From positions 1-43,989 of the IMG/VR virus record IMGVR_UViG_3300037247_002025: a stretch of DNA of 43,989 nt; one strand, 5' to 3'. A program made the position numbers and the translations under genes. Positions 761 through 34,698 of the stretch are shown in pieces (position 1 is the stretch's first letter; each line of letters opens with the position of its first letter). The notes beneath the pieces are model-generated. The model did no database searches. It was not told the DNA's origin and saw only the letters and a list, made by a program, of their open reading frames with translations. The stretch comes from a virus.

Positions 761-3360
761 CACGTCACCTGCCCGCCGCTGAACGGCGTCGAGACGAACT
801 GCTCGCACTCGCCGGTGACGTTGACGTAGTTCGCGCCGCCGGCCTCAAGCCGGACGTAGAGAGCCAGCTTGATCTGTCCCGTGGTCGGGTTGGTATAGGT
901 GAGCGCGCCGCTTCCGGTTCGGCTCTGCGACGGCGTGGAACCGGGAGACGCAGCCAGTCTCAACCCGATGTTGTTGCCGGCCGAGTAAAAGTCTCTTGCG
1001 CCGCCGCCGGCCCCGTTCCCTATGAGGGTAAGCTCAAAGATAATCGAGGACACGTCGGGGCCCACGTAGAAATCAATCTCTTGCAGCTTCCGCCATCCAG
1101 TGAGCGTGGTCGTCCCGCTGGCCAGCAGGTCGAACACGCTCTTTCCGCTGTTGGACTTGTGCCAGTTGTCGGGGTCTATTTGACCAGAATCAAGAATCGC
1201 GTCCCCCACCCGCCCGTCGGTTAGCTCTATCGGGCGGCCCGATACCTGCGAGGCCCAGGCCGCCGAACCCTGGGTCGCCAGCGCGCCCTGGCCGGAGATG
1301 GCCGCCGCCGTGCGCGTCTCGGTGATGTTCGCCCCGCTCTCGGCGGCCCACTTCCGGGTCGCCGCCTCCGCGACGTCGTCCGCGTCCTGCGCCCCCGCCC
1401 CCGTGAAGCGAAAGATGTCGTCGGCGTCGAGGTTGATCCCGCCTACGATGCGCCGCAGTAGGGTCGGGCGGAGGACCCCGTCGAGGTAGGCCGGATCGAT
1501 CGAGCTCCGGGTCGGGCTACCGGGGACGGCGTCGAGGTCGATAGGAAAGAGCGCCGCCCCGAACTGGTCGAAGTAGGCCGTCGTGGCGACCGTGATCGAC
1601 GCCACCGAGCACGCTACTCGCGCGAAGAACGTACCGGCAGGCGCGGTGGCCGAGATCGCCGAGCGGGCGTAGCTTGAGGACGTAACCGCGTCTCCTATCG
1701 TACTCCCGATCTCCGTCTTGCTCGCGTTGAGCCAGCTGATCCGTACCCGCGGCGAACCATCGCCCGCCGTTCGCTTGATGAAGCACTGCGCCATCACCCG
1801 GTCGCCCGGGGCCGCCGGCATGGTGACGGAGTTTCGTAATGTGGAGGGAGCCGAACCGACGAACTTCGCGACCCAGTCGCCGTCGTAGGCGTCCGTTGAA
1901 TTTTTCTCGATCGTAAAATCGCCCGTGTCCTTCGTCCACTGCACGTCGCCCGACTCGAAGTCCGGGTTGCGCATCAGCAGGATGCCGCCGCCCGAGAGCA
2001 ACTCGTTGTCGAGCCCGCCCTCGAAGCCGGGCTCGCCCCCGCCCGGGTCGCCCGGGTCGCTGTCGACCTCGATGGCCTTGCTCCGCAGCCCCACCGTGAC
2101 GACGCGAAAGGTCCCGTTGTTCGTATTGGTCTGGTCCCCCTTCGGCGGCTCGAAGTAGAGCGTGTTGATCGTCACCGCCCCGGTGTCCTGGCGGATGAAG
2201 CCGTGCAGCGTCAGCAGCGACCCGATCGCGCCCGGCGCGGCCGTGTCGCTCCGGGCGTAGAGATAGATCAGCTCGGCGCGGGCGTAGGCGTAGCCGTCGA
2301 TCGGGGAGGTCGGGAGCGCCACGGTCGTCCCGTGGGTCTGGGTGGTGACGAAGAACTCCGGCCGTAGCGCCGCGAACTTCGAGTTGCGAACCATCACCAG
2401 CGCGTCGTCGTCAAGCGGCGGCTTGCCGGGAAGAAAGACGTTGGCGTTCAGGTCGGTGAACGAAACCGTACCGGTCGCGGTGATCCCGGCCCGGAAGCCG
2501 AAGGCGAAGACCCGGACGCGGCCGTCCTGGGTAACCGTGTCGCTGCTCGCTAGGAGCCGGTAGGTGACGGTGGTATCCACCAGCCCGGTGGCGCCGTTCA
2601 CGTTCTTTTCTAGCCGCGCGAGCGTATGCCCGGACGGACCGCTCGAGAGCCCGGTCGCGAAGGCCGGGGTCCAGCGCCAGCTCGTCAGGAACACCAGGTC
2701 CGCGTAGGGGTACTGGAAGCCATCGACGTCGCTGGTCGGCCGCGGCACGGTCTGGCCGTTCCCGAACTCCCCCAGGTCGAAGAACTCCGCCTGGACGACG
2801 CTCCGCTTGGCGGCCGCGTTCAGGTCCTTGAGCCGGTCCTCCCGCCAGGCGCTGTCGAGGTCGAGGTCCGCGTCCGGCACGTTCGTCCACGCCGGGATCG
2901 CGGCGAGGTCGAGCTGGCCGAGCCCGCGGACGCCGACCGCCCAGACCGAGAGCTCCCCATCCTGGGTCTCGGTCGTCTGCCCACCCTGGACGTGGTAGAC
3001 CGTCTTGCAGTGGACGAGGCCGGGGTCGCCGTCGGCCCGCTGCTCCACGTCGTAGTCGAAGTAGAGGATCGTGCCCGCGCCGCTGGTGATACCGTCGCGC
3101 GGGTCCGCGCTCAGCACGACCTCCCACAGGTAGATAACCTCGCTCGCCTGGTAGGGCAGCCGGTCGACCGCGCTGGTCGGGCGCGCGACCGTCTGCCCGT
3201 CCGAGAACCGCCCCATGTAGAAAAACTCCGGGCGGACCACCCCGAACTTAGTGTTCTCGAGGATCTTGACGGCGTGCTGGCCCTGCGCGATCTCCTCCGC
3301 GTCGAGGGCGGAGTCCGGCAGGTCGCTGAGCCCCGGCGGCGCGATGAGCGTGAGCGGCAT
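760..3360 (-). CDS. Large tail fibre / receptor-binding-type protein with triple repeat and CBM-like domain
   Basis: An 866-residue protein built in modules. Residues about 30-430 hold three diverged copies of a domain of roughly 140 residues with the signature (R/A)EFF...GxxVxxPTSxxDGxxY (near residues 44, 190 and 330). Residues about 460-610 form a beta-sandwich resembling carbohydrate-binding modules (opening RNPDFESGDVQW, closing TAYFDQFGAALF). After this comes a region typical of phage fibre shafts (AATRKWAAESGANIT), and the C-terminal ~120 residues form a beta-rich tip. It follows the hub-like gene by 3 bases and overlaps the next start (ATGA), as expected for the most distal tail gene. 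The likely role is host-surface glycan binding at the tail tip. Confidence 0.7.
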   Translation of the reverse strand: MPLTLIAPPGLSDLPDSALDAEEIAQGQHAVKILENTKFGVVRPEFFYMGRFSDGQTVARPTSAVDRLPYQASEVIYLWEVVLSADPRDGITSGAGTILYFDYDVEQRADGDPGLVHCKTVYHVQGGQTTETQDGELSVWAVGVRGLGQLDLAAIPAWTNVPDADLDLDSAWREDRLKDLNAAAKRSVVQAEFFDLGEFGNGQTVPRPTSDVDGFQYPYADLVFLTSWRWTPAFATGLSSGPSGHTLARLEKNVNGATGLVDTTVTYRLLASSDTVTQDGRVRVFAFGFRAGITATGTVSFTDLNANVFLPGKPPLDDDALVMVRNSKFAALRPEFFVTTQTHGTTVALPTSPIDGYAYARAELIYLYARSDTAAPGAIGSLLTLHGFIRQDTGAVTINTLYFEPPKGDQTNTNNGTFRVVTVGLRSKAIEVDSDPGDPGGGEPGFEGGLDNELLSGGGILLMRNPDFESGDVQWTKDTGDFTIEKNSTDAYDGDWVAKFVGSAPSTLRNSVTMPAAPGDRVMAQCFIKRTAGDGSPRVRISWLNASKTEIGSTIGDAVTSSSYARSAISATAPAGTFFARVACSVASITVATTAYFDQFGAALFPIDLDAVPGSPTRSSIDPAYLDGVLRPTLLRRIVGGINLDADDIFRFTGAGAQDADDVAEAATRKWAAESGANITETRTAAAISGQGALATQGSAAWASQVSGRPIELTDGRVGDAILDSGQIDPDNWHKSNSGKSVFDLLASGTTTLTGWRKLQEIDFYVGPDVSSIIFELTLIGNGAGGGARDFYSAGNNIGLRLAASPGSTPSQSRTGSGALTYTNPTTGQIKLALYVRLEAGGANYVNVTGECEQFVSTPFSGGQVT

Positions 3361-3363
3361 AGT

Positions 3364-4749
3364 CTAGGCGAGCGGGTGAGCGTCGACGTCGTCGCTCATC
3401 TTCCCGTCCGTCTTATCTCCTACGAACATATAGGTATCCTTCTGGCCCTGGCTGGCCGCGGTCCACTCCGGCACGCTCGCGGGCGCGATCAAGAATGGCC
3501 CCAGCCCAGCAGGATCGATCCCGCCCCCGAGCTGTACTTGCTCCGCGTCGGCTAGCGAGATCTTCACCTGGCCCTTCATGTAGACCCGGCTAACCTTCGT
3601 GACGACGAAGAACTGGTCGGTGATGCCCAGCGCCCCGCTGACCCGGTTGGGCACGAACGGGTGGCTGAGCTCGACGAAGTCCCCGATCTCCAGCAGCGCG
3701 GCCTCGTCCCAGTGCGCGGTCAGGGCATTCATCGTGAGGTTCTTATCCGCGAAGCGGTTGAAGATTCCCTGCGCGACCAGGCGGGCCAGCCCGAAGCCCT
3801 GCAGGGCCGATCGCATCCCGAGCGACTCGATGACGTGCGAGCCCTGCTGGCTGAACTTGCTCTCCGACGCCGCCTCGATCTCCACGTTGCCGACCGCGAA
3901 CTTATCGCCATCGTGGTCAAAGCGGTGGATCACCACGTTGATGAGCTCGCTCTCCGCTGGCGTCGGGAGGGTCGCCACATTAGCGGCGCTGAACGAGAAC
4001 TGCGAGACGATCGTTCCCGGCAGTGGCAGGAAGCCCCGGATGCTGAACTTCCCGTCGGCCAGCGTAAGGGCGTAGAGGCCGAGCGGCGCCAGCAGCTCCT
4101 TCTCGATGAACGCCTTGGCCTCCGGCGCCTTTTCGATCGAGAAGTTGAACTGGATGCCCGGAAAGACCAGGTCCCGGTAGGCCTGGATGGTGGTGACGTC
4201 GATGTCGCCCGCCGCCAGCCCGACCTCGCCCTGCAGGATCTGCGAGTTGAGGATGGTCATCGGGTTTCCACTGAAGGTCTTGGGGTCGTCCGAGCCGGTC
4301 GGCCCGCCGTTGTCGCCGGTCTTAAAGATGGTCTTCTTTACCAACCGGGTCCGGGGCTTGCAGGTGAACTTCCAGGCGGTGTTGTTCTTGACCGACTCCA
4401 CCCGGTCGACGACGTAGGTGTGCATGAGCGCGTAGTCGGCCTCGGCCAGCCCGACGAACCCGGTCTTGAGCGTGCATTCCCGGCCCTGAAAGACGAAGGG
4501 AAAGTCCCCGAGGATTGCCCCGCCGATGTCCGCGACCGTCACCGCCAGGTCGTTGAGCGCGCTCGTGCCCTTGAGCTCCTGGGCGCTCTGGGTCACCGGC
4601 GCGATGTCGACGATCCACGAGTCAAAGCTCCCGAAGCCGGGGTCCCTGGTAGCGAAGCTCCGTGAGTAGCCGGTGATCTCGAAGAGGTGGACGTACCGCT
4701 TGACCAGCTTCGCGGCCTCGGTCTTCCAGTTGGCGGTCGCGCTGATCAT
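3364..4749 (-). CDS. Tail hub / baseplate-like minor tail protein
   Basis: Encodes 461 residues starting MISATANWKTEAAKL. The ATG at 4749 overlaps the TGA of the preceding gene, so the longer reading to 4821 is not needed. Sequence such as FQGRECTLKTGFVGLAEADY, a long middle domain with SIRGFLPLPGTI, and a C-terminal domain with IGDFVELSHP and TKVSRVYMKGQVKI look like the stacked beta domains of siphovirus tail hub proteins (the phage-27/Tal-like region). It lies between the Dit-like and fibre genes, the usual place of the hub that joins the tube to the fibres. The family was judged by eye, so the exact name is uncertain. Confidence 0.55.
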   Translation of the reverse strand: MISATANWKTEAAKLVKRYVHLFEITGYSRSFATRDPGFGSFDSWIVDIAPVTQSAQELKGTSALNDLAVTVADIGGAILGDFPFVFQGRECTLKTGFVGLAEADYALMHTYVVDRVESVKNNTAWKFTCKPRTRLVKKTIFKTGDNGGPTGSDDPKTFSGNPMTILNSQILQGEVGLAAGDIDVTTIQAYRDLVFPGIQFNFSIEKAPEAKAFIEKELLAPLGLYALTLADGKFSIRGFLPLPGTIVSQFSFSAANVATLPTPAESELINVVIHRFDHDGDKFAVGNVEIEAASESKFSQQGSHVIESLGMRSALQGFGLARLVAQGIFNRFADKNLTMNALTAHWDEAALLEIGDFVELSHPFVPNRVSGALGITDQFFVVTKVSRVYMKGQVKISLADAEQVQLGGGIDPAGLGPFLIAPASVPEWTAASQGQKDTYMFVGDKTDGKMSDDVDAHPLA

Positions 4750-5630
4750 ACGAACTCCCGCAGCCGTAGCTTGAATTCGTAGAAACGGTTGGCCCCCCGC
4801 ACCTGGAGCTTCGGCCGCCACCGCTTATCCTCGAGGACGTAGGTGGTCTTGCCGGCCGCGAAGGCGTCGGGGTAGTAGTCGAAGTTGGTCCCGTCGAGCA
4901 CGGCGGTGATGAAGGTATCCCAGCGATCGATCGCGGCCGGGATCACGGCCTGCGTCTTGACGTAAGGGCCGAGCGCACCATAAGCAAGCTGGCCTCCCCA
5001 GAAATAGATCGGACCATCTGCCTCTTCCCAACTACTTGATCCACCTATTTGAAAACCGACGTGCGTCCAATCACTGGCACCGAGTCCCGTGAGAAAGAAT
5101 CGTTTCCACGAATCGACTACGATCGCGTCACCTTGAAATTGAGGATCGCTACCACCCGAAGCATTTTTATGCATTACCATCCTTACGGTCATAGAACCGG
5201 TAAGAACGCGCAACCAAATTGATGTCGCAAAGCTACGGCCTACAATCTCCGGGGGCTGTCGGTCTTGCCAAATCCTTGCGTTTGTAGACGATACGTCTGG
5301 AATAACTTTATCGGCGGTATTGCCGTCCAACGGATCGGTCACATCTGAGGTATTCGCCTCAACCGTCACCTGCGACTTTGTCCAATCCCCGTGGTCGAGC
5401 TCCTCCGATCGCGTGAGGTAGTTCTCCGCCTCGGTCGGTACCAGCGTGAGGTCAAGCTCGAGGAACTTGTCGACCCGCTCCAGCAGGCTCTGCCGCTCCC
5501 CGGAGCTCGCGATCGTGTCGTGGCGCCGAAACGCCTGGTCGAAGGGCCGGACGTTCACCGGCGGGAAGGCGAAGAGCAGCTCGTTGGCGCCCCCGCTCGG
5601 CCAGACGATCTTCGGGACTAGGATCGGCAT
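4746..5630 (-). CDS. Distal tail-like protein with inserted carbohydrate-binding-like domain
   Basis: A 294-residue protein. The first ~68 and last ~66 residues (ending RGANRFYEFKLRLREFV) appear to form one tail domain, and residues ~69-228 are an inserted beta-sandwich opening NYLTRSEELDHGDWTKSQVT, a typical start of phage CBM-like domains. The DNA of the insert is much lower in G+C (about 50% over 4981-5340, counted by hand) than the flanking lines (about two thirds), which points to later acquisition. The gene follows the tape measure with a 4-base gap and a good ribosome site (AGGAG), the normal place of the distal tail protein. The insert probably binds host or environmental glycans. Confidence 0.6.
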   Translation of the reverse strand: MPILVPKIVWPSGGANELLFAFPPVNVRPFDQAFRRHDTIASSGERQSLLERVDKFLELDLTLVPTEAENYLTRSEELDHGDWTKSQVTVEANTSDVTDPLDGNTADKVIPDVSSTNARIWQDRQPPEIVGRSFATSIWLRVLTGSMTVRMVMHKNASGGSDPQFQGDAIVVDSWKRFFLTGLGASDWTHVGFQIGGSSSWEEADGPIYFWGGQLAYGALGPYVKTQAVIPAAIDRWDTFITAVLDGTNFDYYPDAFAAGKTTYVLEDKRWRPKLQVRGANRFYEFKLRLREFV

Positions 5631-8136: not shown

Positions 8137-8838
8137 CTGCGCTCCTCGTCGGCCGCCGCGGGACGATTCCGTGCCGCCGCATGAAGGTCGTCGCGCTCAT
8201 CTTATTTCTAAAGCCGCCCGTCATCTCTTTCATCTTGGCTCCCGCCAGCTTCGCCTGAAACTCAAACTCCAGCTTTCTTCGCCTCCCCAGGCTCTGCAGC
8301 ATCAGCCCCAGCTTCTCCTCCGTCCAGTGGTCGTTTATGTACTCGGGCGTGAGGCCCCACTGGTAGAGGGCGAGCTCGTAGGCTTCTCCGAGAGTAACGT
8401 TGCCTTCGTTACCTGGGAAAGTGCCAGGACCGTCTGCAGCAGGTCGAAAAAAGGGAAGCCCAGCTTCATTACCGCGTTGAAGGCGACGACCAGCTGGACC
8501 TCAGTCGCCTCCGCCTCGATCTTCTTTCGCGGAAGCTCGGGCGCGTAGGCAAAGAAGAGGTCCGCGACGAACCCCGGAAACTTAATGAACGCCAGGCGCA
8601 TCGCACGGGTGAACATCTCGGTTTCGTCCTGCTTCCGAAAGAAGCTCAGGATGGTTCGGCGCGGCGGCGTGAAGCCCTTCGCGACCAGCTGCAGCTTTTG
8701 ATAGAATAGCTCCCGCCACCTTCCTTGTTCATTGATCGTCAGCGGCCGGATCTCGTACTCGCGATCGCCCAGCGTAACCTTGCTCGGCAATTGAAAGAGC
8801 CCCGCCTCCTCCGTCCTTCCGTTCGTCTTCTCTGGCAT
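8126..8838 (-). CDS. Tail assembly chaperone GT, made by -1 ribosomal frameshift
   Basis: Translation starting at 8838 can slip back one base on CCCTTTTTTC (minus strand, 8455-8446), which holds two in-frame slippery heptamers, C_CCT_TTT and T_TTT_TTC. The -1 frame is then open to the TAA at 8128-8126, giving a fusion of 237 residues. The extension carries LGEAYELALYQWGLTPEYI and NDHWTEEKLGLMLQSL, the kind of text seen in T domains of lambda-like GT proteins. No independent start supports this second frame. It ends inside the tape measure start region, the classic G/GT layout. The T domain is expected to bind the tape measure during tail assembly. Confidence 0.85.
8335..8838 (-). CDS. Tail assembly chaperone G
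   Basis: A 167-residue, unshifted product starting MPEKTNGRTEEAGLF, fixed by AGAGGAGGCG just upstream of the ATG at 8838. It has a ~50-residue beta-type N-terminal part (KVTLGDREYEIRPLTINEQG) followed by helices. Residues after the slip site (from about 128) are Ser/Thr-rich and look non-conserved, as expected where the conserved reading leaves the frame. The protein coats the tape measure during tail assembly and is absent from mature virions in well-studied phages. Only position and the frameshift support this naming; the sequence itself is diverged. Confidence 0.8.
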   Translation of the reverse strand: MPEKTNGRTEEAGLFQLPSKVTLGDREYEIRPLTINEQGRWRELFYQKLQLVAKGFTPPRRTILSFFRKQDETEMFTRAMRLAFIKFPGFVADLFFAYAPELPRKKIEAEATEVQLVVAFNAVMKLGFPFFDLLQTVLALSQVTKATLLSEKPTSSPSTSGASRPST

Positions 8839-8858
8839 CTCGCCTCCTCTAGCGAAAG

Positions 8859-8897
8859 GGGGCCGCCGGTTCCTTCGCCGCGCCATCCGGCGGCCCC
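8859..8897 (-). terminator. Strong hairpin after the major tail protein gene
   Basis: Perfect 11-base inverted repeat GGGGCCGCCGG / CCGGCGGCCCC (8859-8869 and 8887-8897) with a 17-base loop, in the short gap between the major tail protein and chaperone genes. On the minus strand it is followed only by CTTTCG, so the U-tract is short. It is more likely an attenuator or RNA-stabilising 3' end that lowers expression of downstream tail genes relative to the tube protein than a full terminator. Confidence 0.6.
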
Positions 8898-8912
8898 TCC
8901 CCGCGTCAACTA

Positions 8913-9518: not shown

Positions 9519-9854
9519 CTAGAACTTCACCGGCAAGAGTTTAATGTCGGTGATTGAAATGGTCGTGGCGATGTTGACATCGCCATTCGCGTCATTGTAC
9601 TGCCCCGGCGGAAACGGTCCCATCAGATACTGGGTCGCGGCCGCCGGCGACTGCGTAACGTCCTCGTTCGAGCGCCCGTGCGAGCACGGTTCACTCGCGA
9701 CCGTGACCAAGCCGGTGGGGGCCGCGCCCCCGTCGACCAGCAGCATCGTCTTTCCGTCGTTCTGGAACTTGTCCGTCGCCGTCGCCGCCGCGAGCAGCGA
9801 GGTAATCTCCTTGACGCCCTTTCCTGGAAGTGAAGCTACCGTAAGCTGTGCCAT
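9519..9854 (-). CDS. Small structural protein, unknown role
   Basis: A 111-residue protein beginning MAQLTVASLPGKGVKEITSL, with a beta-rich middle (GLVTVASEPCSHGR) and the motif MGPFPPGQYNDANGDVN followed by C-terminal strands. Small proteins with a similar MGPFP...NDA(D/N)G text are frequent near head-tail genes, and are probably decoration or joining proteins. The gene lies between the tail terminator and the tube protein, with a very strong ribosome site (AGGAGGAAGGC). The family is not named with certainty. Confidence 0.65.
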   Translation of the reverse strand: MAQLTVASLPGKGVKEITSLLAAATATDKFQNDGKTMLLVDGGAAPTGLVTVASEPCSHGRSNEDVTQSPAAATQYLMGPFPPGQYNDANGDVNIATTISITDIKLLPVKF

Positions 9855-10920: not shown

Positions 10921-11301
10921 CTATCGGCTCCTCACCACGTCGTTCCAGATCAGCTCCGCCTCGCTGAACGGCGAGAGGTTCAGCTCCGCGTAGCCGAAGG
11001 CCGGCGCGTTCTCGCTCAGGGCGCGGTAGTGCGCGGCCACCTTCAGCACCGCCTCGGCCATCGCCTTCGAGTCGATGGTATAGTCACCGATCTTCGTCGA
11101 CTTGGCGAGCAGGGCTGCGTTGGCGGCGACCGCGTCCAGCGCGCCGGCGGCGGCCAGGTTTAGGTCGGCGCCACCCTCGGTCAGGAAAAAGTCGATCTCC
11201 TCGTCGTTAAACAGCTGCCGGGTCGCGTCCGCCTCGTCCGTGTCTCGGATCTTGAGCCGAACCTTGCCGCGATCGGTCGCCAGGTCGTAGGTAAAGGCCA
11301 T
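10921..11301 (-). CDS. Head-tail connector (adaptor) protein
   Basis: Encodes 126 residues starting MAFTYDLATDRGKVRLKIRD, with the ATG at 11301 overlapping the previous TGA. Text such as RLKIRDTDEADATRQLFNDEEIDFFL followed by helical, alanine-rich segments is characteristic of the gp6/gp15-like adaptor family that binds below the portal. It is the first of five consecutive neck and tail genes that resume the normal order after the unusual insert at 11301-16878. Confidence 0.8.
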   Translation of the reverse strand: MAFTYDLATDRGKVRLKIRDTDEADATRQLFNDEEIDFFLTEGGADLNLAAAGALDAVAANAALLAKSTKIGDYTIDSKAMAEAVLKVAAHYRALSENAPAFGYAELNLSPFSEAELIWNDVVRSR

Positions 11302-13022
11302 CAGATGATCTCCTCTCGGTGCGGCACGGGTAGGTCCGCCGCGCCTAGAATCCGCTCGCGCGTCCAGGGAAAGCCAAGGTCGACCGAAAGGTCGCCCGAG
11401 ACGGTAGCTAGCCCCGCGACGACCCCCCGCAGCGCCCACTTAAGCTCGAGCACGCCCGCGAGCGTGCTGCCGCCGGCGACCGCGCCGGTCAGGGCGCGCA
11501 GCCTCTGAAGCTCGCCCGCCAGCGTCGAGGCGACGTCGATCGATCCATTGATCGCGCGGTACTTTCCGAGGATCGCGTCCAGCGTCGAGGCGGCCGCCAC
11601 GGTGCTAGCCATCAGCCGCTCGACCGGGAGCTGCCCGGTCAGCGCCGAGATCGCGGCGATCACGCCACTCAGAAGCTGCTCGCCGGCGAGGGTAAGCTCC
11701 CCGTCTAAGGCGCTGACGCCGGAGATAGTTCCCGCCAGCGCCCACTCGAGCTCAAGCGCACCGGCGAGGCTCGAGGTCGCCGGAACCACCGCGACCATCT
11801 CTCTTGAAATTGGCAAGTCGCCCGCGAGGGTCGAGGTCGCCGCCACGGTGCTAACCATTAGTCGATCAACGGGAAGCTCGCCCGCGAGCGCAGCAGCCGC
11901 GGCTATAGTGCTGATCATCTCCCGATTGACGGGGAGCTCACCTGCGAGGGTTGAACTCGCGGCGATCACGCCATCCAAGAGCTGCTCACCGGTAAGAATC
12001 AACTCGCCCGCGAGGGTAGAAGAGGCGGCGATCGCAGAGATCATCTCCCGGTCAACCGGGAGGTCGCCCGCGAGCGTCGAGACCACCGCCACGGTGCTGA
12101 CCATCTCTCGATCGACCGGCAGCACGCCCGCGAGCGCGGAGACCGCGGCGACGACCGCGGCCATCTCTCGGTCAACCGGCAGATCCCCGGTCAGGCTCGA
12201 GGCCGCGGCGATCGTGCCGTCGAGGAAGACGTCGACGGCTACGCCTATCTCAACGCCGCTGTAGATCCCGGCCACCTGCTGCTTGTGAACGTCCAGGATG
12301 ACGCTGCCCGGATCGGCGGGCAGGAGGACGAGGGGGAGCAGGGGAACAAAGCTAGAGCGAAGCCTATTCTCCTCGGCAGGATCAGCCGCAGCCGCCGGTC
12401 GGATTACAACTACATTTGCAATCCAAATCGCTGAGGTAGCGACGGTAAAGGCATCGGGGTCTTCCGGGCTACCGTTGCGCTCCCGCCGTCCTGTCCCGAT
12501 TTCAACCGAGCCGCCGCCAGCGCCAGCATTGGTGTCAATGAAGTCCGTGTAGCTTGTCGGCCCCGCGGTGATGTCGTTGTCGGAAACCTTAATCCCGGCG
12601 ACTGCCAACCAAAGGGTATCCTCGGCACCCCAGCTAGGAGCTAGGCTCGGCGGGTCGGGCGAGGTACTGGTTCCCGTCGTAGCGACTCCTGCCTCTGGTG
12701 CCGTAGTTCCGTGCCAACCTGTTATGCGATAGGTTTGGGCTGCCGAGGATTCGCCACTTACTATATTAACATCTACCGTCGTGCCGCCCTCGGTTCCGTC
12801 GGCAAATCTATAGAAGACGGTCAGCTGAATGGTGTTCAGCCCGGCATTTTCACTAAATAGCAGCGTCCACCCGGTCGGCGTATTTGGCTGGTCGTCATCA
12901 TCATTGAGGAACTTCATCACCAGCAGGTCACCGTCGTCAACGGTGGCTGGCATCGCTACGGCGTGAATTGGCCCGTCGAGGTCAACCGATTCAGTGACGC
13001 TCGCTACGACTGGAAAAGCCAT
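11301..13022 (-). CDS. Structural protein with N-terminal beta domain and 14 x 20-residue repeats
   Basis: A 573-residue protein in three parts. Residues 1-210 are a beta-sandwich-like domain (TPTGWTLLFSENAG; AIWIANVVVIRPA) coded by DNA lower in G+C. Residues 211-266 are a linker with a hydrophobic stretch. Residues 267-550 contain 14 tandem repeats with a period of 20 residues (two of 22) around the core S(A/T)LAGxLPVDREM. The regular small-hydrophobic pattern suggests a beta-solenoid fibre. Repeats of the type AGSIA-xSTL-xGxL are known in other phage virion proteins. The place between capsid and connector genes hints at a head fibre or decoration, but a tail role is possible. Confidence 0.65.
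   Translation of the reverse strand: MAFPVVASVTESVDLDGPIHAVAMPATVDDGDLLVMKFLNDDDDQPNTPTGWTLLFSENAGLNTIQLTVFYRFADGTEGGTTVDVNIVSGESSAAQTYRITGWHGTTAPEAGVATTGTSTSPDPPSLAPSWGAEDTLWLAVAGIKVSDNDITAGPTSYTDFIDTNAGAGGGSVEIGTGRRERNGSPEDPDAFTVATSAIWIANVVVIRPAAAADPAEENRLRSSFVPLLPLVLLPADPGSVILDVHKQQVAGIYSGVEIGVAVDVFLDGTIAAASSLTGDLPVDREMAAVVAAVSALAGVLPVDREMVSTVAVVSTLAGDLPVDREMISAIAASSTLAGELILTGEQLLDGVIAASSTLAGELPVNREMISTIAAAAALAGELPVDRLMVSTVAATSTLAGDLPISREMVAVVPATSSLAGALELEWALAGTISGVSALDGELTLAGEQLLSGVIAAISALTGQLPVERLMASTVAAASTLDAILGKYRAINGSIDVASTLAGELQRLRALTGAVAGGSTLAGVLELKWALRGVVAGLATVSGDLSVDLGFPWTRERILGAADLPVPHREEII
11373..12224 (-). repeat. Tandem ~60-base coding repeats (14 units)
   Basis: The conserved LAGxL core recurs at residues 278, 298, 318, 338, 360, 380, 400, 420, 440, 462, 482, 502, 522 and 542 of the protein encoded at 11301-13022, spacings of 20 with two of 22. 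Neighbouring units are similar at the DNA level (CGGTCGACCGG-type blocks recur), so copy number could change by slippage or recombination. Confidence 0.9.
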
Positions 13023-13027
13023 TAACC

Positions 13028-14704
13028 TTACGCTCCTGAAACCATCTTCGCGCGGGTGAAGGTGCCGCTCACCAGGCTCAGGGCCGCCTTGGCGATCTTG
13101 ACGTCCGCGTCGCTGTAGATGCCCAGCTCCGAGCCGGTGGTCACGTTCTGGTTTCGCAGCGCCATGAAGAACAGCATCAGCAGCTGATCGGGTCGCGGGT
13201 TAGCCGGCGGTTGGCCTTGCGGCAACTCCGCCAGGGTCGCCGCGCCCGAGCCGAAGACCTTGTCGGCGGCGTCCTGGGCGAACGCCGCCGCGCTGATCGC
13301 GTCGGTGGCGAACTTGCCCGACGTAAACGCGTTGCCGGCGATCGCGGCGGCGGTCAGGACGTTGGCGGCCATCGCCCCGACCGAGCCGTCCACGCGGCCC
13401 GAAGCCAGCGCGTTCATCGCCGCGCCGAGCCACTCCTTTAGGTCGGCGTGAACCATCCCGTCCGCCTCGGTGGCGATCAGGTTCGCCGGGGTCGCGAGCA
13501 CCTTGCCGGCGGCGTCCGTGCCGGCCTCGGCCGCTATCGTGCTTCTCGACAGGGCGGCGTCCTCGGTGAGGTCGGTGGTGGTACCGTTGTCGGTAATGGT
13601 CATGTTGCCGCGGGCAGCCACCGTCAGGCTGGTGCAGGTGGCGCCTATGATGAGCTGGCCGTCGCTCTCGTAGCTCACGGTGTCGAGGGCGGTCCCGCTG
13701 TTGAGCTGCAGTCCCCCCGAGTAGTGTCGGATGTTGAGGTTGGTAACGCCCGCCCCCGGGAAGGTGAGCTCCGGCGTGTTGTTTCCCGCGACCGCGCTGT
13801 GGCACCCGGCGAAAATTATGTTCATCGACGCGCGGAGGGTGCTGTTGCCCGTTAGCGCGCAACCATAGGCAAAGCACTCCAGGGCTGCCAGCCCCGCCAG
13901 CTCGCAGTCGTGCATGTGAATTCGGTCTGCCCCGCCCTGGGTACCGGTCAGGGAGAGGGAGATGAACGTCGAGTTATCCACGTCCTGGGAGCCCAGGTTG
14001 ATCTGGTTATTTCCCCCGATGCCGACAAACTCGTAGTCCTCCATCGGGGCGGCGAGCGTGACGTTGGAGTCGTTGATGAGGTAGATGCGATCGAGGCTCA
14101 TGCTGTCGGCCAGGGTCTTGGCGGCGCCGATGGTGGAGACGGGGTTGCCTATGGTGCCGTCCACGCCGTTTACGGTGTTGGTGTTGCCGGCGGCGTCGTT
14201 TAGATAGACCCCGGGCCCACGCGGCCCCAGGTAAGCGGGGTAGAATCCCTCGTTGCCGTCGAACACGGTTTCAAGATTATCGGCGGCAGGCGCAGAACCG
14301 CTGACAGCGGTCACGTCCGCTCCGACCTCCCCGGCGGCGCTTACGCCGAGCCTTCTCCCGTTGGTAGCGGGCATAAGAGCGGCGCGGTTCTCGATGCTGA
14401 ATGAGGCCACCACGTACCCGACGGCGGAGATGCCATTTATCGTGCCAGCCGAGATAACCACCTGGTACTCCTGTCCCACGCCGAACCCGTTGGCGGCAGT
14501 GGCGACTACGCGAACATTGTGTAGGCCCGTGAGGCTATTAAAATCCAGGGTAAGTGTTTCCGCTCCGGTTATGGGAGTAATAGAGTTATCTTCATAAATT
14601 TCGACTTCACCGGAAACCAACGTAACCGGCAATCCAGTGTTATTCACCGTGGTGAACTTAAAGTCAAACGTCGTCTCTAAAGCAAAATCGCCTAAGTTGT
14701 TCAT
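13028..14704 (-). CDS. Beta-helical fibre-like structural protein
   Basis: A 558-residue protein. The N-terminal ~110 residues look like a small Ig-like beta domain (GLPVTLVSGEVEIYEDNS; VSAGTIN-type strands). Residues ~170-400 read like a right-handed beta-helix, with short strands, many Asn, Gly and Thr, and TPVSTIGAAKTLADS-type entry text (NPVSTIGAAKTLAD). The last ~150 residues (AANVLTAAAIAGNAFTSGKF) are the coiled or trimerising alanine-rich tail common in phage fibres. It shares a one-base overlap (TAATG) with its upstream neighbour. The likely role is a fibre on head or tail; which one cannot be told from sequence. Confidence 0.6.
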   Translation of the reverse strand: MNNLGDFALETTFDFKFTTVNNTGLPVTLVSGEVEIYEDNSITPITGAETLTLDFNSLTGLHNVRVVATAANGFGVGQEYQVVISAGTINGISAVGYVVASFSIENRAALMPATNGRRLGVSAAGEVGADVTAVSGSAPAADNLETVFDGNEGFYPAYLGPRGPGVYLNDAAGNTNTVNGVDGTIGNPVSTIGAAKTLADSMSLDRIYLINDSNVTLAAPMEDYEFVGIGGNNQINLGSQDVDNSTFISLSLTGTQGGADRIHMHDCELAGLAALECFAYGCALTGNSTLRASMNIIFAGCHSAVAGNNTPELTFPGAGVTNLNIRHYSGGLQLNSGTALDTVSYESDGQLIIGATCTSLTVAARGNMTITDNGTTTDLTEDAALSRSTIAAEAGTDAAGKVLATPANLIATEADGMVHADLKEWLGAAMNALASGRVDGSVGAMAANVLTAAAIAGNAFTSGKFATDAISAAAFAQDAADKVFGSGAATLAELPQGQPPANPRPDQLLMLFFMALRNQNVTTGSELGIYSDADVKIAKAALSLVSGTFTRAKMVSGA

Positions 14705-15414
14705 TATGCCCTCACCGCGTGATGTCTTACCTGTGCCAATCCCGCGCCCTGCCCGCCTACCGCCGTCTTCGTCACCGTGATCCTCGGCACCTGGGTATTG
14801 TCCATGCCCGGATTCCCGGCGTTATAGCGCAACCGGAACTCTATAAAGTCTCCGTCGCTAAAGTCAGCCGAAACCAGTAACAGGCCCCAGACCATCTCGG
14901 TAAAGTTGTTCGCCGTGAGCTCGAAGTTTGCCAGCTCTGCGTCAGATACCATCTGTTCGCTAGCAACGAAGGAGCCCGCCCCGTCGGTGAGGCCGTCCGT
15001 TCCCCGGTTGGTCGTAGCCCCGCCGTCCGTCAGGAAGCTACCGGAGTCCATCCGAACGCGATTGGTTGCACCCGTGGGAGTTATCCACGACCCCCCGCCG
15101 TTTACCCGGTACTGGAGGTCGTAGTCGTCGATGGCGTTCCCGCCAATATCTCCGGCGCCGAGCTCGTCCATCAGAAGCCGAAGCTGAATCTGGGAGTCCG
15201 AATCTACGCCGCGCCCGGTTACGTTCACGTCCTCACCCGCAGCCGGACTTGAGCCCGCCTCGGTTCCGTCCTCGTAGAAGCGGAAGTGCGTTATATCAGG
15301 GGCGAACTCATCGTGGCCGCACAGAGCCCAGGGACCGGAGTAAAGATAACTCTCCCGATGGAGGACGACACCCGTCTCGATGTCGATGACGACCTTAGTG
15401 GTTACGCGCTTCAA
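14704..15414 (-). CDS. Virion-associated protein, TTG start
   Basis: Encodes 236 residues if started at the TTG at 15414, giving LKRVTTKVVIDIETGVVLHR. This start is preferred because TTKVVIDIETGxVLxxExYxYSGP is a recurrent N-terminus in phage structural operons and GAAGAGGG lies just upstream; the ATG at 15468 would lie deep in the previous gene. The rest is beta-rich (ITHFRFYEDGTEAGSS; DFSDGDFIEFRLRYN) and looks like a jelly-roll or concanavalin-type domain. It overlaps the upstream gene by 20 bases. Function unknown; probably a virion surface protein. Confidence 0.6.
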   Translation of the reverse strand: MKRVTTKVVIDIETGVVLHRESYLYSGPWALCGHDEFAPDITHFRFYEDGTEAGSSPAAGEDVNVTGRGVDSDSQIQLRLLMDELGAGDIGGNAIDDYDLQYRVNGGGSWITPTGATNRVRMDSGSFLTDGGATTNRGTDGLTDGAGSFVASEQMVSDAELANFELTANNFTEMVWGLLLVSADFSDGDFIEFRLRYNAGNPGMDNTQVPRITVTKTAVGGQGAGLAQVRHHAVRA

Positions 15415-15691
15415 TTTTCGCCCTCTTCCTGATCTCCCAGTAGTCCTCATCCCGAATCGACCGGCCAAATAGAACCGCCTTGGGGCCGCGGTACATCAGC
15501 AGGTAGTCCCACAGGCCGGGGGTGTCGCAGCCGTTCCAGCCGGTCTCAGCGTTCCAGTAGTAGGCGGTCTTGCCGGACTGTAGCTTCCCGTCATTATCAA
15601 CCACCTGTACGTTGCTGGTCGGGGCATGGAAGGGGTCACCATCCTCGCTACTGAAGGTTGACCCGTCGCCGTAGTAGATTTTCCAGGCCAT
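15395..15691 (-). CDS. Small conserved phage protein
   Basis: A 98-residue protein opening MAWKIYYGDGSTFSSEDGDP, with SNVQVVDNDG, KTAYYWNAETGWNGCDTPGLWDYLL and VLFGRSIRDEDYWEIRK. Proteins of this length with a YYDDGSTF start, a YYxW strand and a GLWDYL...VLFGRTI.xExF end occur in many siphovirus structural operons, usually with no assigned role. It overlaps the next gene, so the two are probably co-translated. Confidence 0.65.
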   Translation of the reverse strand: MAWKIYYGDGSTFSSEDGDPFHAPTSNVQVVDNDGKLQSGKTAYYWNAETGWNGCDTPGLWDYLLMYRGPKAVLFGRSIRDEDYWEIRKRAKIEARNH

Positions 15692-15692
15692 C

Positions 15693-16061
15693 TCATCCCC
15701 CGCTCTCCCAGGGAACGACGGCGGTCGCCTGGTTCGAGGGCACGCTCTCCAGGCCGTTGGCGTCCAGCGCCCGCACCACGTAGTAGTAGGTCAGGCCCTT
15801 CTCCACGGTCTCGTCGTCGTAGGTTAGGCCGGGGATCACCGCCGAGTTTAGCCGGACGTACGGACCGCCGTTCTGGTCGGAGCGGTAGGCGTGGTAGCCC
15901 ACCACCGTCGGCGTCGGGCTGGCGTCCCACGCTAGCTCGGCGACCGGCTCCCAGGTTACAACGATATTCAGCACCTTCTCAGCGGTCTGCTGCCCCGCGC
16001 CCGAGGCCGCTAGGACCAGGGCCAGGAGCAACATCGCCGAGGTTGTGAGAAGGCGCCTCAT
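15693..16061 (-). CDS. Exported fibronectin type III protein
   Basis: A 122-residue protein. Residues 1-21 form a typical signal peptide (MRRLLTTSAMLLLALVLAAS) with a possible cleavage site around GAG/QQ. Residues ~35-120 are one Fn3 domain: AELAWDASPTPTVVGYHAYR, then YDDETVEKGLTYYYVVRALDANG. Right after the signal it has GQQTAEKVL, matching GQQTAEQQL of its upstream neighbour, so the two leaders are related. The ATG overlaps that neighbour's TGA. A secretion signal is unusual inside a capsid-tail operon; the product may sit on the infected cell surface instead of in the virion. Confidence 0.7.
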   Translation of the reverse strand: MRRLLTTSAMLLLALVLAASGAGQQTAEKVLNIVVTWEPVAELAWDASPTPTVVGYHAYRSDQNGGPYVRLNSAVIPGLTYDDETVEKGLTYYYVVRALDANGLESVPSNQATAVVPWESGG

Positions 16062-16453
16062 CCCGTCTTCCGCTTGTCCTTCCTCGCCGGCTTCCTACCA
16101 AACTCGAACGTCCGGGTGGCCGCGCTCCCCGCGCTGTCGGTAGCCTCAACGGTAAAGATGAAGCTACCGGTCTCAGTAGCCGTGCCACCCAGGACGCCGT
16201 CCGCGGCGCCCAGCGTCAGCCCGGCGGGCAGCGCGCCCAGGATCACCGCCCAGGTATAGGGCGCGACCCCGCCCATCGCGGTGAGGGTCGTGCTATAGGG
16301 CACGCCCATCTGCCCGCCCGGCAACGAGCTGGTCATCACGACCAGCAGCGCCGGCGCGATGTCGAGCGAGAGCTGCTGCTCGGCCGTCTGTTGCCCGCAG
16401 GCCAGCAGCGGAAAGAGTAAGACGACCAGCGTAACCAAAACGAGATACCTCAT
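16058..16453 (-). CDS. Predicted lipoprotein with Ig-like (He_PIG-type) domain
   Basis: Encodes 131 residues from the ATG at 16453, which has GGGAGG upstream; a longer reading to 16624 overlaps another gene and lacks a ribosome site. The N-terminus is a signal peptide with a lipobox LLAC (Cys19), so the product should be lipid-anchored. Residues ~42-120 match the putative Ig domain family: GVPYSTTLTAMGGVAPYTWAV, LPAGLTL, GGTATETGSFIFTVEATDSAG. The C-terminus is basic. Phage lipoproteins often block superinfection, but the Ig domain and place in the structural operon leave an adhesion or decoration role open. Confidence 0.7.
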   Translation of the reverse strand: MRYLVLVTLVVLLFPLLACGQQTAEQQLSLDIAPALLVVMTSSLPGGQMGVPYSTTLTAMGGVAPYTWAVILGALPAGLTLGAADGVLGGTATETGSFIFTVEATDSAGSAATRTFEFGRKPARKDKRKTG

Positions 16454-16476
16454 AATCGTCCTCCCAATCGCCCGTC

Positions 16477-16878
16477 TTAGTCGAGCGTGATGTCCAGGTC
16501 GCCCGCGGCAAACTTCGCCGTATCGCCGTCGTCGATGTCCTTCGCCGTGCCCAGCAGGCCGTAGGCCAGCAGGTTGCCGCCGCTGACCGCGTCGTAGATC
16601 CCGAAGTAGGTACACACCCCCCACGGGCCGGTCGCCGCCGGGAAGGCCATCTCGATCGCGTTCGCCAGCGCGCCCGCGGCCGCGGTCGTCCAGGTGGTCT
16701 TGTCGTTGGTAAAGCTCGGCCGCGAGTAGTTGTTGCCGCTCGGCTCGGTGAAGTTGGTACCGTCGTCGCTCGGCGTGGTGGTCGAGAGCGCCAGCCAGAC
16801 CGACGCCGGCTCGGCGTAGTCCAGGCCGCCGAACAGTTGGTCCAGAACCTCGAGTTCAAGATAGTCTGTAAAGCTCAT
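16477..16878 (-). CDS. Fibre-type virion protein following the capsid gene
   Basis: A 133-residue protein with the widespread phage pattern VWLALSTTTPSDDGTNFTEP, then NNYSRPSF, AAATGPWG-type text (FPAATGPWGVCTYFGIYDA), GGNLLAYGLL and a C-terminal GDLDITLD. This arrangement is found in short fibre or tail-fibre-like proteins encoded in many siphovirus structural operons. It follows the major capsid gene with a strong ribosome site (GGGAGGATTAGGCT). The fold is probably a small beta-sandwich trimer. Whether it decorates head or tail is not visible. Confidence 0.65.
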   Translation of the reverse strand: MSFTDYLELEVLDQLFGGLDYAEPASVWLALSTTTPSDDGTNFTEPSGNNYSRPSFTNDKTTWTTAAAGALANAIEMAFPAATGPWGVCTYFGIYDAVSGGNLLAYGLLGTAKDIDDGDTAKFAAGDLDITLD

Positions 16879-16900
16879 AGCCTAATCCTCCCGCGGTGAG

Positions 16901-16922
16901 GGGGGCGCCCTTCGACGCCCCC
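16901..16922 (-). terminator. Hairpin after the major capsid gene
   Basis: Inverted repeat GGGGGCG / CGCCCCC (16901-16907 and 16916-16922) around an 8-base loop, directly downstream of the capsid stop. No U-tract follows on the minus strand, so it is probably an attenuator or mRNA 3' stabiliser that separates capsid expression from the genes after it. The major tail protein gene has a comparable hairpin. Confidence 0.5.
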
Positions 16923-16942
16923 GTCCCGCACTATTCAGCAGT

Positions 16943-18106
16943 TTACGACTCCGTGCCGTCCTGCGCGTAGGTGACCCGGGGGTCGATCTGCGTGCCCCCC
17001 ATGATGTGGCGAACCCGCCACAGCATGGAGTCGCTCTCGAAGTCGCCCTCGAGCGGACCCGCCGCGCCGCCGCCCACCGCTACCTTGTTCGGGGCCTTCA
17101 TCACCAGCTCCGGACTGGTCCGCCCCGCCAGGAAGTTGAGCCGCGCCGCCTGCCCCGACGCCAGCTTCGCGAACACGTACCAGGTGGTGTCCTTGTTCGC
17201 GCTCTCGTCGACGATCGGCAGGTACTCGTTGACGTGGCCGGTGATGCTCATCAACCGCACGGTGCTAATTTCCCGGCCCTCCACCGTGCTCGCCACCGAG
17301 ACCGCCTGCAGGATCTTGAGCATGTCGAACTCCAGCGTCGGCGGGACGACCAGCTCGAATCCGATGATGATGATCGGCAGGCCCTCCTGGTCCGTCTGCT
17401 GCCGCATCAAGCTCACCGTGGTCCCGAGGTTGACCGCGCCGCTGGTGCCGCTCAGCTTTAGGTCGCCCTTGTTGGTGATGGCCTTCCCGTCGATCGGGTG
17501 CGTGACCGTCGCCCCGTAGAGCGAGGCGTGTGGCCCCGCCGCGTCCGCGATCAGGCCGGTGGCCTCGAAGAACTCGGTCACCAGGGCGGCGTTCAGGAGC
17601 CGCTCCCCGATGTCCCGAAATGCCCCGAGCTCATAGTCGGCCAGCACGGTCTCCCAGGCCAGACCGAAGAGGCGGCCATACTTCTCGAGGGTGATCGCGG
17701 TCTTGCCCTCGTCCAGTTCCTTGTCCTGCTTGTACTCGCCGCGGATCTTTACCTTCGGCAGCTTGTCCTGCAGCCCCCAGATCCCTAGGATCTCCTGGCC
17801 CGAGGCCCGAAAGTCCTTCTGGGTACCGACGCCGATGTAGCTGCGCCAGTCCGGCTTCGACAGCACGTATTTCGCGTGCAGCGACCGCTCCAGGATATTG
17901 CCAAAGAGGATCGGAAAGTCCGACATGGTCGAGGCCTCCCGCAGAAGGTACAACCGCTTGTGGGCGCTATGCCCCCGCTCGTTGAGGATCAGGGCCTGCA
18001 GCGCGTCGAACTTTTCCTTAAAGTTCTCGACGCTGTGCGCCTGGTCTCCCATGCTGGGGTCCAGCCTGCCCTCCATAACTTCCAAGATGTTAAGTTTCTT
18101 CCGCAT
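16943..18106 (-). CDS. Major capsid protein
   Basis: A 387-residue protein with strong Shine-Dalgarno AAAGGAG. The N-terminal ~70 residues are helical and charged. The body has EYKQDKELDEGKTAITLEKYG, GLAWETVLADYELGAF, AALVTEFFEATGL, LRVPPTLEF-type text (ELVVPPTLEFDMLKIL) and a C-terminal strand region with FESDSMLWRVRHIMGGTQID. These follow the pattern of HK97-fold capsid proteins of the Mu-like/DUF2190-associated group. The DUF2190 gene and the protease-scaffold gene directly upstream fit this call. The fold is inferred; no delta-domain boundary was established. Confidence 0.85.
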   Translation of the reverse strand: MRKKLNILEVMEGRLDPSMGDQAHSVENFKEKFDALQALILNERGHSAHKRLYLLREASTMSDFPILFGNILERSLHAKYVLSKPDWRSYIGVGTQKDFRASGQEILGIWGLQDKLPKVKIRGEYKQDKELDEGKTAITLEKYGRLFGLAWETVLADYELGAFRDIGERLLNAALVTEFFEATGLIADAAGPHASLYGATVTHPIDGKAITNKGDLKLSGTSGAVNLGTTVSLMRQQTDQEGLPIIIIGFELVVPPTLEFDMLKILQAVSVASTVEGREISTVRLMSITGHVNEYLPIVDESANKDTTWYVFAKLASGQAARLNFLAGRTSPELVMKAPNKVAVGGGAAGPLEGDFESDSMLWRVRHIMGGTQIDPRVTYAQDGTES

Positions 18107-18118
18107 GGTTTGCTCCTT

Positions 18119-18508
18119 TTACCCTACCTCCGCCTTCTGCAAGACGGGGATGGTGGCGGTTCCGCCGGACGTAACGGTCCCGAGGGCGTACCCGAAGAAC
18201 GTACCCAGGGTAAAGTCCTTGTTCAGCTGGTCCTCGGCGTCGTCGATGTATAGCTTGTCGCCGATCGCCACCGCCTCGTCCGCCGGCGTCTCGTTCCGCC
18301 CGGTTACCAGCAACCGATAGACGCCCTTGCGGTCCATCGGGATCAGGTCGGTCGAAGCCAGGGCCGTGTTCTGCGCCACGCCCGTGAGAAAGTCCCCCGC
18401 GCCCCAGAACGCCGGCGCACCCGACTGGATGAGACCGGACGCTTGCGGGGTCAGGGTGCTCTCAAGCACGGTAAGAATATCACCTTTCTGTTCCCAGTTT
18501 TTCGCCAT
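18119..18508 (-). CDS. DUF2190-type capsid accessory protein
   Basis: A 129-residue beta-rich protein. The text IPMDRKGVYRLLVTG, AVAIGDKLYIDDAEDQL and GYALGTVTSGGTATIPVL is the DUF2190 pattern (a strand, GDxxY, then GxAL...G). Such small proteins commonly lie between protease/scaffold and capsid genes and are thought to decorate or stabilise the head. Strong ribosome site GGGAGGAACAGCG; 12 bases before the capsid gene. Confidence 0.75.
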   Translation of the reverse strand: MAKNWEQKGDILTVLESTLTPQASGLIQSGAPAFWGAGDFLTGVAQNTALASTDLIPMDRKGVYRLLVTGRNETPADEAVAIGDKLYIDDAEDQLNKDFTLGTFFGYALGTVTSGGTATIPVLQKAEVG

Positions 18509-19644: not shown

Positions 19645-20007
19645 CTATCCCTCCCCTTCGCCGCCCTCGGCCGGCGCTACATCGCCGCCCTCGGCCGGCG
19701 CTACATCGCCGCCCGAGGCCGGCGCTACATCGCCGCCCTCCGGCTCTGATTCTTCCTCTACTACCTCCGGCTCCGGCTCTGATTCTTCCTCTACTACCTC
19801 CGGCTCCGGCTCTGATTCTTCCTCTACTACCTCCGGCTCCGGCTTTGATTTTCCTTTCCTACAGATGCTCGCGTCGATCAAGACGGTCTGCCCCGGGGCG
19901 ACCGTCACCGAGATTCGATCGCTCGAGTGCCGACCCGAGATCTTACCCTCTACGATCACGGTATCCTCGTTCTCGAGGTTCTTTCCGTTTTTGTCCTTCC
20001 AGCTCAT
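19645..20007 (-). CDS. Acidic repeat protein of the head operon
   Basis: A 120-residue protein. Residues 1-53 form a compact domain (DTVIVEGKISGRHSSDRISV, then VLIDASICRKGK). The rest is low complexity: three copies of an 11-residue unit PEPEVVEEESE and three of an 8-residue unit GGDVAPAE/S, ending GGEGEG. The tail is strongly acidic and disordered. Ribosome site AGGAGGATACC is strong. Position between minor head and protease genes suggests a head-assembly or internal head role. No family recognised. Confidence 0.65.
   Translation of the reverse strand: MSWKDKNGKNLENEDTVIVEGKISGRHSSDRISVTVAPGQTVLIDASICRKGKSKPEPEVVEEESEPEPEVVEEESEPEPEVVEEESEPEGGDVAPASGGDVAPAEGGDVAPAEGGEGEG
19660..19850 (-). 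repeat. Two adjacent coding microrepeat arrays (24-base x3 and 33-base x3)
   Basis: The 24-base units (starts at 19660, 19684, 19708) encode GGDVAPAE or GGDVAPAS, and the 33-base units (about 19738-19850) encode PEPEVVEEESE. Units are almost identical in DNA, unlike typical diverged protein repeats, so they are recent expansions and likely vary in number between related phages. Unit lengths are multiples of three, so changes keep the frame. Confidence 0.9.
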
Positions 20008-26601: not shown

Positions 26602-27663
26602 ATGTCAAAAATTTACCGCCGAGAAAAACAACTTTCTACCTTAGTGCGGGGCGACGCTCGACGCATTCCGCTGGTGGATGAATCTGTCCAGTGCGTTGTG
26701 ACCTCTCCGCCTTATTGGGGCTTGCGGAAATACGCCGGTAAGCAGAGGTCGGTGTGGGGCGGGCGGAAGGATTGTGAACATAAGTGGAGAGACCAGTCTC
26801 GTTTGATAGCCACGGGCGGGCAGACGGAAAAGCAGACAACTAATCTTGGGCAAACAGGTAAGGGCTATACAACAGGGGACTCTTCTTGTAATTGCGGTGC
26901 CTGGCGCGGAGCCTACGGCCTGGAACCTACCGTCGAGTTGTACGTCCGGCACACGGTAGAGATCCTGCGGGAGATTCGTCGGGTACTGCGAGATGACGGA
27001 GTGGTGTTTTGGAACATTGGGGATTCCTACTGTGGCGCGTGGGGTAACTACGGGCATCGTCCTGAATTAGATGGGACGCCCTCTCACCAGCGCCAGAAGA
27101 ACACGATCTACCTGAAGCGCGGGGGCTGGGATAACAGGCGCGACCGCCCGGCGTCGAGCTACAAGCAGGAAGGCCTCAAGCCTAAAGACCTTTGCCTGAT
27201 TCCCTTTCGTGTCGCCCTAGCCGCCCAGGCCGATGGCTGGTGGGCGCGCTCCGACATCATCTGGGCCAAGCCTAACCCGATGCCAGAGAGCATACGTGAC
27301 CGGCCCACGCGCTCGCATGAGTACATTCTGATGCTGACCAAGAGCGCGAGGTATTACTGGAACGCGGCGGCGGTGATGGAGAAAGCTATCGGAGCAACCT
27401 CGGGAGGCGCCGGGAAGCGCAACCTCCGCTCCGTCTGGACGTTTCCCGCTCGGCCCTACCGGGGGGCGCACTTTGCCGTGTTCCCGCTAGAACTACCAAA
27501 ACGTTGTATCGAAGCGGCCACGCGGAGGGGAAACCTGGTACTCGATCCTTTCGCCGGCACCGGAACGGTCGGCGTGGCGGCTACCAAACTGAATCGAAGG
27601 TCCGTGCTACTTGATCTTACCTATCAGCGCCTAGCTCGCCGGCGGCTGGTCGCGCAAGAGTAA
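26602..27663 (+). CDS. DNA methyltransferase, N4-cytosine or N6-adenine type
   Basis: A 353-residue enzyme of the beta order: catalytic TSPPYWGLR (34-42) near the N-terminus and the SAM-binding DPFAGTGTVG (315-324) near the C-terminus. IWAKPNPMPESIRDR and THSHEYILMLTKS-like text (RSHEYILMLTKSARYYW) lies between, as in phage and restriction-linked MTases. Cys residues around CEHKW and CNCGAW may form a small zinc site for DNA recognition. G+C is visibly lower than its neighbours (48% in one 60-base line counted), suggesting recent transfer. No restriction gene lies nearby, so it is most likely an orphan that protects phage DNA. Confidence 0.85.
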   Translation: MSKIYRREKQLSTLVRGDARRIPLVDESVQCVVTSPPYWGLRKYAGKQRSVWGGRKDCEHKWRDQSRLIATGGQTEKQTTNLGQTGKGYTTGDSSCNCGAWRGAYGLEPTVELYVRHTVEILREIRRVLRDDGVVFWNIGDSYCGAWGNYGHRPELDGTPSHQRQKNTIYLKRGGWDNRRDRPASSYKQEGLKPKDLCLIPFRVALAAQADGWWARSDIIWAKPNPMPESIRDRPTRSHEYILMLTKSARYYWNAAAVMEKAIGATSGGAGKRNLRSVWTFPARPYRGAHFAVFPLELPKRCIEAATRRGNLVLDPFAGTGTVGVAATKLNRRSVLLDLTYQRLARRRLVAQE

Positions 27664-34688: not shown

Positions 34689-34698
34689 GGAGAAAACG

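Follow-up and report, generated by a model that had tools for sequence, protein, structure and literature searches.

What are seven extra genes doing between the major capsid protein (MCP) gene and the head-tail adaptor gene of an uncultured phage, and where would their products act? The question is raised by an IMG/VR virus record (IMGVR_UViG_3300037247_002025, 43,989 nt), the whole of which is called the window here; all coordinates refer to it unless another locus is named. The late operon lies on the minus strand and runs from terminase through portal, minor head protein (mhp), protease/scaffold, cement and MCP to the seven extra genes and the adaptor, after which it continues with Hc1-like, Neck1, tail terminator (TT), major tail protein (MTP), tape measure and tail-tip genes. 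An earlier note, made from the sequence alone, had described a seven-gene insert of about 5.6 kb that interrupts the capsid-connector order. This was confirmed: 5641 bp (5.64 kb) separate MCP and adaptor and are filled with seven tightly packed minus-strand ORFs, the first following the MCP after 64 nt, with inter-ORF gaps of -74 to +23 nt. We call this junction the slot, and Table 1 lists its features.

Table 1. Features of the MCP-adaptor slot and its flanks in the window.
Feature	Position	Strand	Remarks
Cement protein	18119-18508	-	Separate gene preceding MCP
MCP, left slot border	16943..18106	-	Pfam Phage_capsid_4 E=1e-24; phrog_133/4523
GC-rich post-capsid hairpin	16900..16923	-	20 nt beyond MCP stop; fold z=-3.4 in window
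gp80-type small fibre protein, 133 aa	16477..16878	-	PF23140 E=1.2e-38; phrog_240 'head protein' 1.3e-20
Ig-domain protein, 131 aa	16058..16453	-	He_PIG E=9.2e-14; hydrophobic N-terminal signal sequence
Fn3 protein with signal peptide, 122 aa	15693..16061	-	PDB 3mpc 'Fn3-like' 4.3e-8
98-aa protein, first cassette gene	15395..15691	-	77% identical in L007
~236-aa protein, second cassette gene	14704..15414	-	86% identical in L007
558-aa protein, third cassette gene	13028..14704	-	83% identical in L007
573-aa repeat protein, last slot gene	11301..13022	-	20-residue tandem repeat
Linker before repeats	12252..12395	-	82.6% identical DNA in L007; domains either side differ
Tandem-repeat region of 573-aa protein	11382..12302	-	~14 units of 20-21 aa
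C-terminal tail, consensus RERxxxAADLPxPHREE	11304..11369	-	Common to window, L003 and L007
Head-tail adaptor, right slot border	10921..11301	-	76% identical in L003, 56% in L007

The seven genes and their flanks

The first slot gene had been read as a short fibre protein, and its product indeed matches the gp80 fibre family PF23140 over its full length (aa 3-131, 132.8 bits with a cut-off of 27). It also matches PDB 8jou_a (E=3.6e-10), an entry that names a virion-associated phage protein, and the record of the gp80 homologue in phage phiM5 notes detection in the particle proteome. One gene of the block at least, the gp80-type one, is thus from a family with virion members. The next two genes had been called an Ig-like lipoprotein and an Fn3 protein with signal peptide. 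The latter description was upheld by the PDB match in Table 1 and the signal peptide; for the former, the putative Ig domain and the signal sequence stand, but the lipobox-like LLAC deviates from the classical consensus. The two proteins have the motif GQQTAE in common behind the signal sequence, and no relative of the Fn3 protein was found in viral contigs.

The following three genes form a cassette shared with the distant phage L007, the MCP of which is 42% identical to that of the window. Their conservation in L007 supports the view that the 98-, ~236- and 558-aa genes are coding. For the ~236-aa gene, which starts at a TTG near 15414 or at a TTG at 15468, 68% of the base differences to L007 are at third codon positions, and in the 558-aa protein there is a divergent stretch at about aa 430-508. 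The three proteins have no Pfam or PHROG match and no significant PDB match, and neither the 'beta' label given earlier to the 98- and ~236-aa proteins nor the beta-helical fold previously attributed to the 558-aa protein gained support from these searches.

The last gene had been described as a repeat fibre, and it does carry a 20-residue tandem repeat, which covers aa 241-547 (score 412 vs 34 in shuffles, z=94); a PDB search with this protein gave nothing up to E=10. When compared with its counterpart in L003, the closest relative of the window (MCP 80% identical), the C-terminal half is 58% identical while the N-terminal part is unrelated. Conservation of the C-terminal tail and swapping of the N-terminal domain within this clade suggest a protein anchored by its C-terminus, with the N-terminus facing outwards. 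In protein searches the 558-, 573-, 98- and 254-aa proteins had no match in named phages, and the slot region had no DNA match in them.

The family assignment of the adaptor is backed by its conservation beside the Hc1/Neck1 genes. Some further features were observed outside the slot. A 120-aa protein with acidic repeats (PEPEVVEEES and GGDVAPAEG; 19645-20007) lies between minor head protein and protease, and its repeats are shortened or missing in homologues. Between the genes for major tail protein and tape measure, overlapping frames (8335-8912) resemble tail assembly chaperones, with a possible programmed frameshift. The small protein o111, between tail terminator and major tail protein (9519-9854), moves among phages, being upstream of the protease in L003 (1097-1423), upstream of the portal in L097 (2706-3107) and before Neck1 in L008 (18014-18367). 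The early-strand genes at 26602-27663, 39570-40712, 41560-42510 and 34191-35466 encode N6/N4 and C5 DNA methylases, thymidylate synthase and relatives of cyanophage Pam3 gp33/gp34. There was no integrase among the window proteins scanned, which cover the early ORFs in part.

A variable slot and a mosaic block

The comparison of related phages for loss of the block, which the earlier note had proposed, was run on 84 loci, one of them the window, that have a related MCP and allowed placement of MCP as well as adaptor. The loci came from scans with MCP alignments, and narrower alignments were used as queries, the broad MCP alignment being insufficiently conserved. Empty, partly filled and differently filled junctions were all found: the slot is near empty (<450 bp) in 54 loci and has a size of at least 1.9 kb in 16. 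Inserts of the latter size are absent from the portal-mhp, protease-cement, cement-MCP, adaptor-Hc1 and Neck1-TT junctions, and elsewhere they occur at Hc1-Neck1 (3/72), TT-MTP (2/22) and mhp-protease (6/69). The MCP-adaptor junction is the most insertion-prone in the head-neck operon, and its insert in the window is more than a chance event; since the mhp-protease junction also takes inserts, it is the main hotspot and not the sole one. Relatives without the block, with part of it or with other cargo bear out the claim that it is a module added to an otherwise standard head-neck operon, and one that is dispensable.

The filled state changed at least 10 times on the MCP tree, a quick tree on which 7 changes are forced by well-supported branches. 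The turnover is most apparent between close relatives. Between L186 and L184, DNA identity is 90.7% as far as a point just beyond the MCP and 96% in the adaptor, yet their slots of 6.1 and 3.7 kb share no DNA; similarly, the slot is 3.5 kb in L171 and 70 bp in L180. As for the cargo, lectin-type LamG domains occur in several other slots, and a tandem-repeat protein is present in 13 of the 16 large slots (11 different proteins, period 18-47), usually as the last gene before the adaptor. We also considered whether such proteins are exclusive to the slot, and this was rejected: several empty- or mid-slot loci encode repeat proteins outside it, so they are typical cargo only. On inspection by eye, the last-slot repeat proteins of L120, L155, L159, L170, L171, L173 and L184 were seen to have a basic tail with Arg/Lys at five-residue spacing, and the repeats attached to these tails are unrelated.

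The seven genes had been taken as one unit, and here the comparison led to a different result. In L003 the order is MCP, gp80 (81% identical to the 133-aa protein), a 467-aa repeat protein with a related C-terminal half, and adaptor; of the block seen in the window, five genes in the middle and the N-terminal portion of the repeat gene are missing or replaced there. On the other hand, the window and L007 have 84.5% DNA identity across 2278 bp, beginning at the start codon of the 98-aa gene, with further short DNA matches in the 558-aa gene and the repeat-gene linker; outside the slot their DNA similarity amounts to one 137-bp stretch at 70%. The Ig and Fn3 genes were found in neither L003 nor L007. 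The outer genes match L003, the cassette matches L007 and Ig/Fn3 match neither, so that at least three parts of different history make up a mosaic block. A wider case is L008, whose MCP is unrelated (phrog_1005) and whose MCP-adaptor interval holds gp80, two giant repeat proteins and a phrog_1084 protein.

Such a patchwork might also be produced by chimeric assembly. The complete seven-gene block was seen in one contig only, and L007 comes from the same metagenome sample as L004, a phage very close to the window. However, L003 matches the block in place at its two outer ends and L007 does so in the middle, the gaps fit operon packing, and many other slots vary likewise; we therefore consider the probability of a chimera negligible. 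The sample in question is 3300037247, where exchange between L004 (82-88% DNA identity to the window) and L007 could occur.

A search of the open literature, where most subscription papers are missing, yielded no description of the slot. Accessory virion fibres are a known kind of element, and what we did not find described there is a recurrent MCP-adaptor slot.

Where the slot products may act

If the slot genes were ordinary receptor-binding tail fibre genes encoded early in the operon, their products would be at the tail tip. In Lietuvens, PVJ1 and L150 the gp80 homologues have baseplate or tape-measure genes as neighbours, and phrog_553 'minor tail protein' is matched by the repeat protein of L003 over its N-terminal part. 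Because gp80 relatives also occur in tail-tip clusters, a position in the slot need not mean neck or head. Nevertheless, the window keeps its own tail-tip/fibre genes at 443-5630, apart from the slot, and its tail-tip genes (o4746, o3364 and o760) have homologues in empty-slot relatives as well, which makes the slot cargo extra. Slot genes are recurrently found before the adaptor, not after the tape measure, and the block of the window likewise precedes the adaptor instead of lying beyond the tape-measure gene beside the tail-tip genes. The idea that they are displaced tail-tip genes was lowered by the presence of the tail-tip genes themselves, and we regard the tail-tip reading as unlikely.

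A different location would follow if all seven were head-decoration proteins coating the capsid shell in the manner of T4 Hoc, a dispensable surface fibre with Ig domains, a conserved C-terminus and variable outer domains (PMC10385173). The likeness is partial. The block directly follows the MCP, 'head protein' is the label of phrog_240, one of the proteins has an Ig domain, and the conserved C-terminus and variable N-terminus of the repeat protein resemble those of Hoc (PMC10385173). However, the phage already has a separate cement protein, encoded ahead of the MCP; relatives of gp80 are present in tail clusters; Pfam/PHROG scans of the seven proteins detected no Hoc capsid-binding domain; and the cargo is swapped as whole genes. 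While five of the seven lack a signal sequence, as expected of Hoc-type proteins, the Ig and Fn3 proteins carry one. Head decoration by the whole block is thus quite unlikely in our estimation. With gp80 relatives present in tail-tip clusters, fibres at the neck or tail side would be at least as likely as head decoration.

The signal peptides separate Ig and Fn3 from the remaining cargo. With a home-made strict rule (not SignalP), they were called in none of 781 core genes, in 2 of the 7 slot genes of the window (Ig and Fn3) and in 1 of 68 other slot proteins. The last is a 787-aa slot protein of L104 (8193-10553), which also has a LamG domain and a weak carbohydrate-binding module match. Since signal peptides are present on Ig/Fn3 and absent from core genes, export to the host envelope is likelier than virion assembly for these two, and their products are probably exported to the cell envelope. 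It has been reported that phage-borne DGR target proteins are without the signal peptides of their surface-displayed bacterial counterparts (PMC6199706), in keeping with the idea that virion proteins lack them.

Could the whole block then be moron-like cargo, absent from virions and active at the surface of the host cell? It resembles phage morons in being a set of optional genes inserted into a structural operon, with Ig/Fn3 that look host-derived. The signal peptides on Ig, Fn3 and the L104 protein would agree with this, as would the similar stand-alone secreted Fn3 genes on Acidobacteriota chromosomes. But signal sequences are missing from the other five genes, the gp80 family has members in virions, and most of the cargo looks structural. 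The late-operon packing is tight as well, and the block lacks the promoter and terminator of its own that a moron would have: no promoter-like site was found among the promoter types scanned, and terminator-like sites are no commoner than in shuffles. We consider this reading highly unlikely for the block as a whole.

Acidobacteriota genomes often hold similar Fn3 domains, some in small secreted proteins among chromosomal genes, and a Bryobacterales MAG (Acidobacteriota) has an MCP 47-51% identical to that of the window. This phylum is suggested as the host and as the source of the Fn3 gene; the donor is only suggested, because Fn3 is widespread and the search was confined to Acidobacteriota with no control phylum.

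The closest known counterpart for the first gene is fibre I gp80 of GP4 (PF23140, PDB 8jou), of which the 133-aa protein is a full-length sequence relative. The gp80 dimers of GP4 reportedly sit near the tail vertex, joined to one another by an elongated rope protein, and by analogy the repeat protein of the window could play the rope part. The GP4 assembly also has a fibre-tail adaptor, for which no counterpart was identified in the window. GP4 is a podophage, whereas the window phage has a tape-measure gene (long tail). The Burkholderia phage BcepMigl also has several virion-associated genes after the MCP, including a gp80 relative and, two genes beyond it, a pectin-lyase-like protein; it differs in being a podophage, in having the gp80 relative five genes after the MCP and in that no repeat protein was noted.

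The post-capsid hairpin and a reading of the locus

The slot begins behind the post-capsid hairpin. Downstream of the MCP stop, 77% of 82 unique loci have a stem of at least 8 pairs; for eight other core genes the figure is 11-29%, and for MTP it is 43% of 21. The post-MCP stem occurs in 13/14 filled, 8/11 intermediate and 35/46 near-empty slots; its position is kept between phages and its sequences differ. An Rfam search gave no match. As the hairpin has no clear U-tract in the window, we infer its regulatory role only: it may be an attenuator or an mRNA stabiliser. In T7 a terminator lies between gene 10 (capsid) and gene 11 (adaptor), the same operon place as the window's hairpin. Unlike that terminator, the hairpin here is often without a clear U-tract and is followed by cargo genes, and its function is putative.

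We account for these observations by cargo in a recurrent MCP-adaptor slot, with gp80, the repeat protein and probably the cassette as optional virion fibres and Ig/Fn3 as proteins exported late, a reading that we favour with reasonable but limited confidence. The hairpin would probably separate the very high expression of the capsid from a lower expression downstream, so that slot genes would be made late and at a modest level, leaving capsid and neck assembly undisturbed. As optional fibres or adhesins, the gp80-type, repeat and probably cassette proteins would be part of the virion, where the neck or the tail-side vertex is their most likely place. A position near the head-tail joint is probable for the fibres, since the adaptor gene borders the slot and gp80 reportedly forms the tail-vertex fibres of GP4. 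The Ig and Fn3 genes would have been added later, and their products would reach the host envelope by export at a late stage of infection; there, masking of surface receptors may be their likeliest role.

A broader picture, which we put forward tentatively as possible though doubtful, is that a large uncultured phage group has a hairpin-bounded cargo site where cassettes are swapped across capsid lineages, a C-terminally anchored repeat 'rope' sits near the head-tail joint and host-type secreted Ig/Fn3 proteins are taken up, so that one late operon would dress both the virion and the dying host cell.

Phage surface diversity is mostly sought at tail tips, and here a capsid-adaptor slot repeatedly gains, loses and swaps fibre genes. 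As the slot can be located by its flanking genes and the hairpin, it offers a simple route to unrecognised surface proteins in uncultured phages, and near-identical phages with full and empty slots make adsorption and host range directly comparable.
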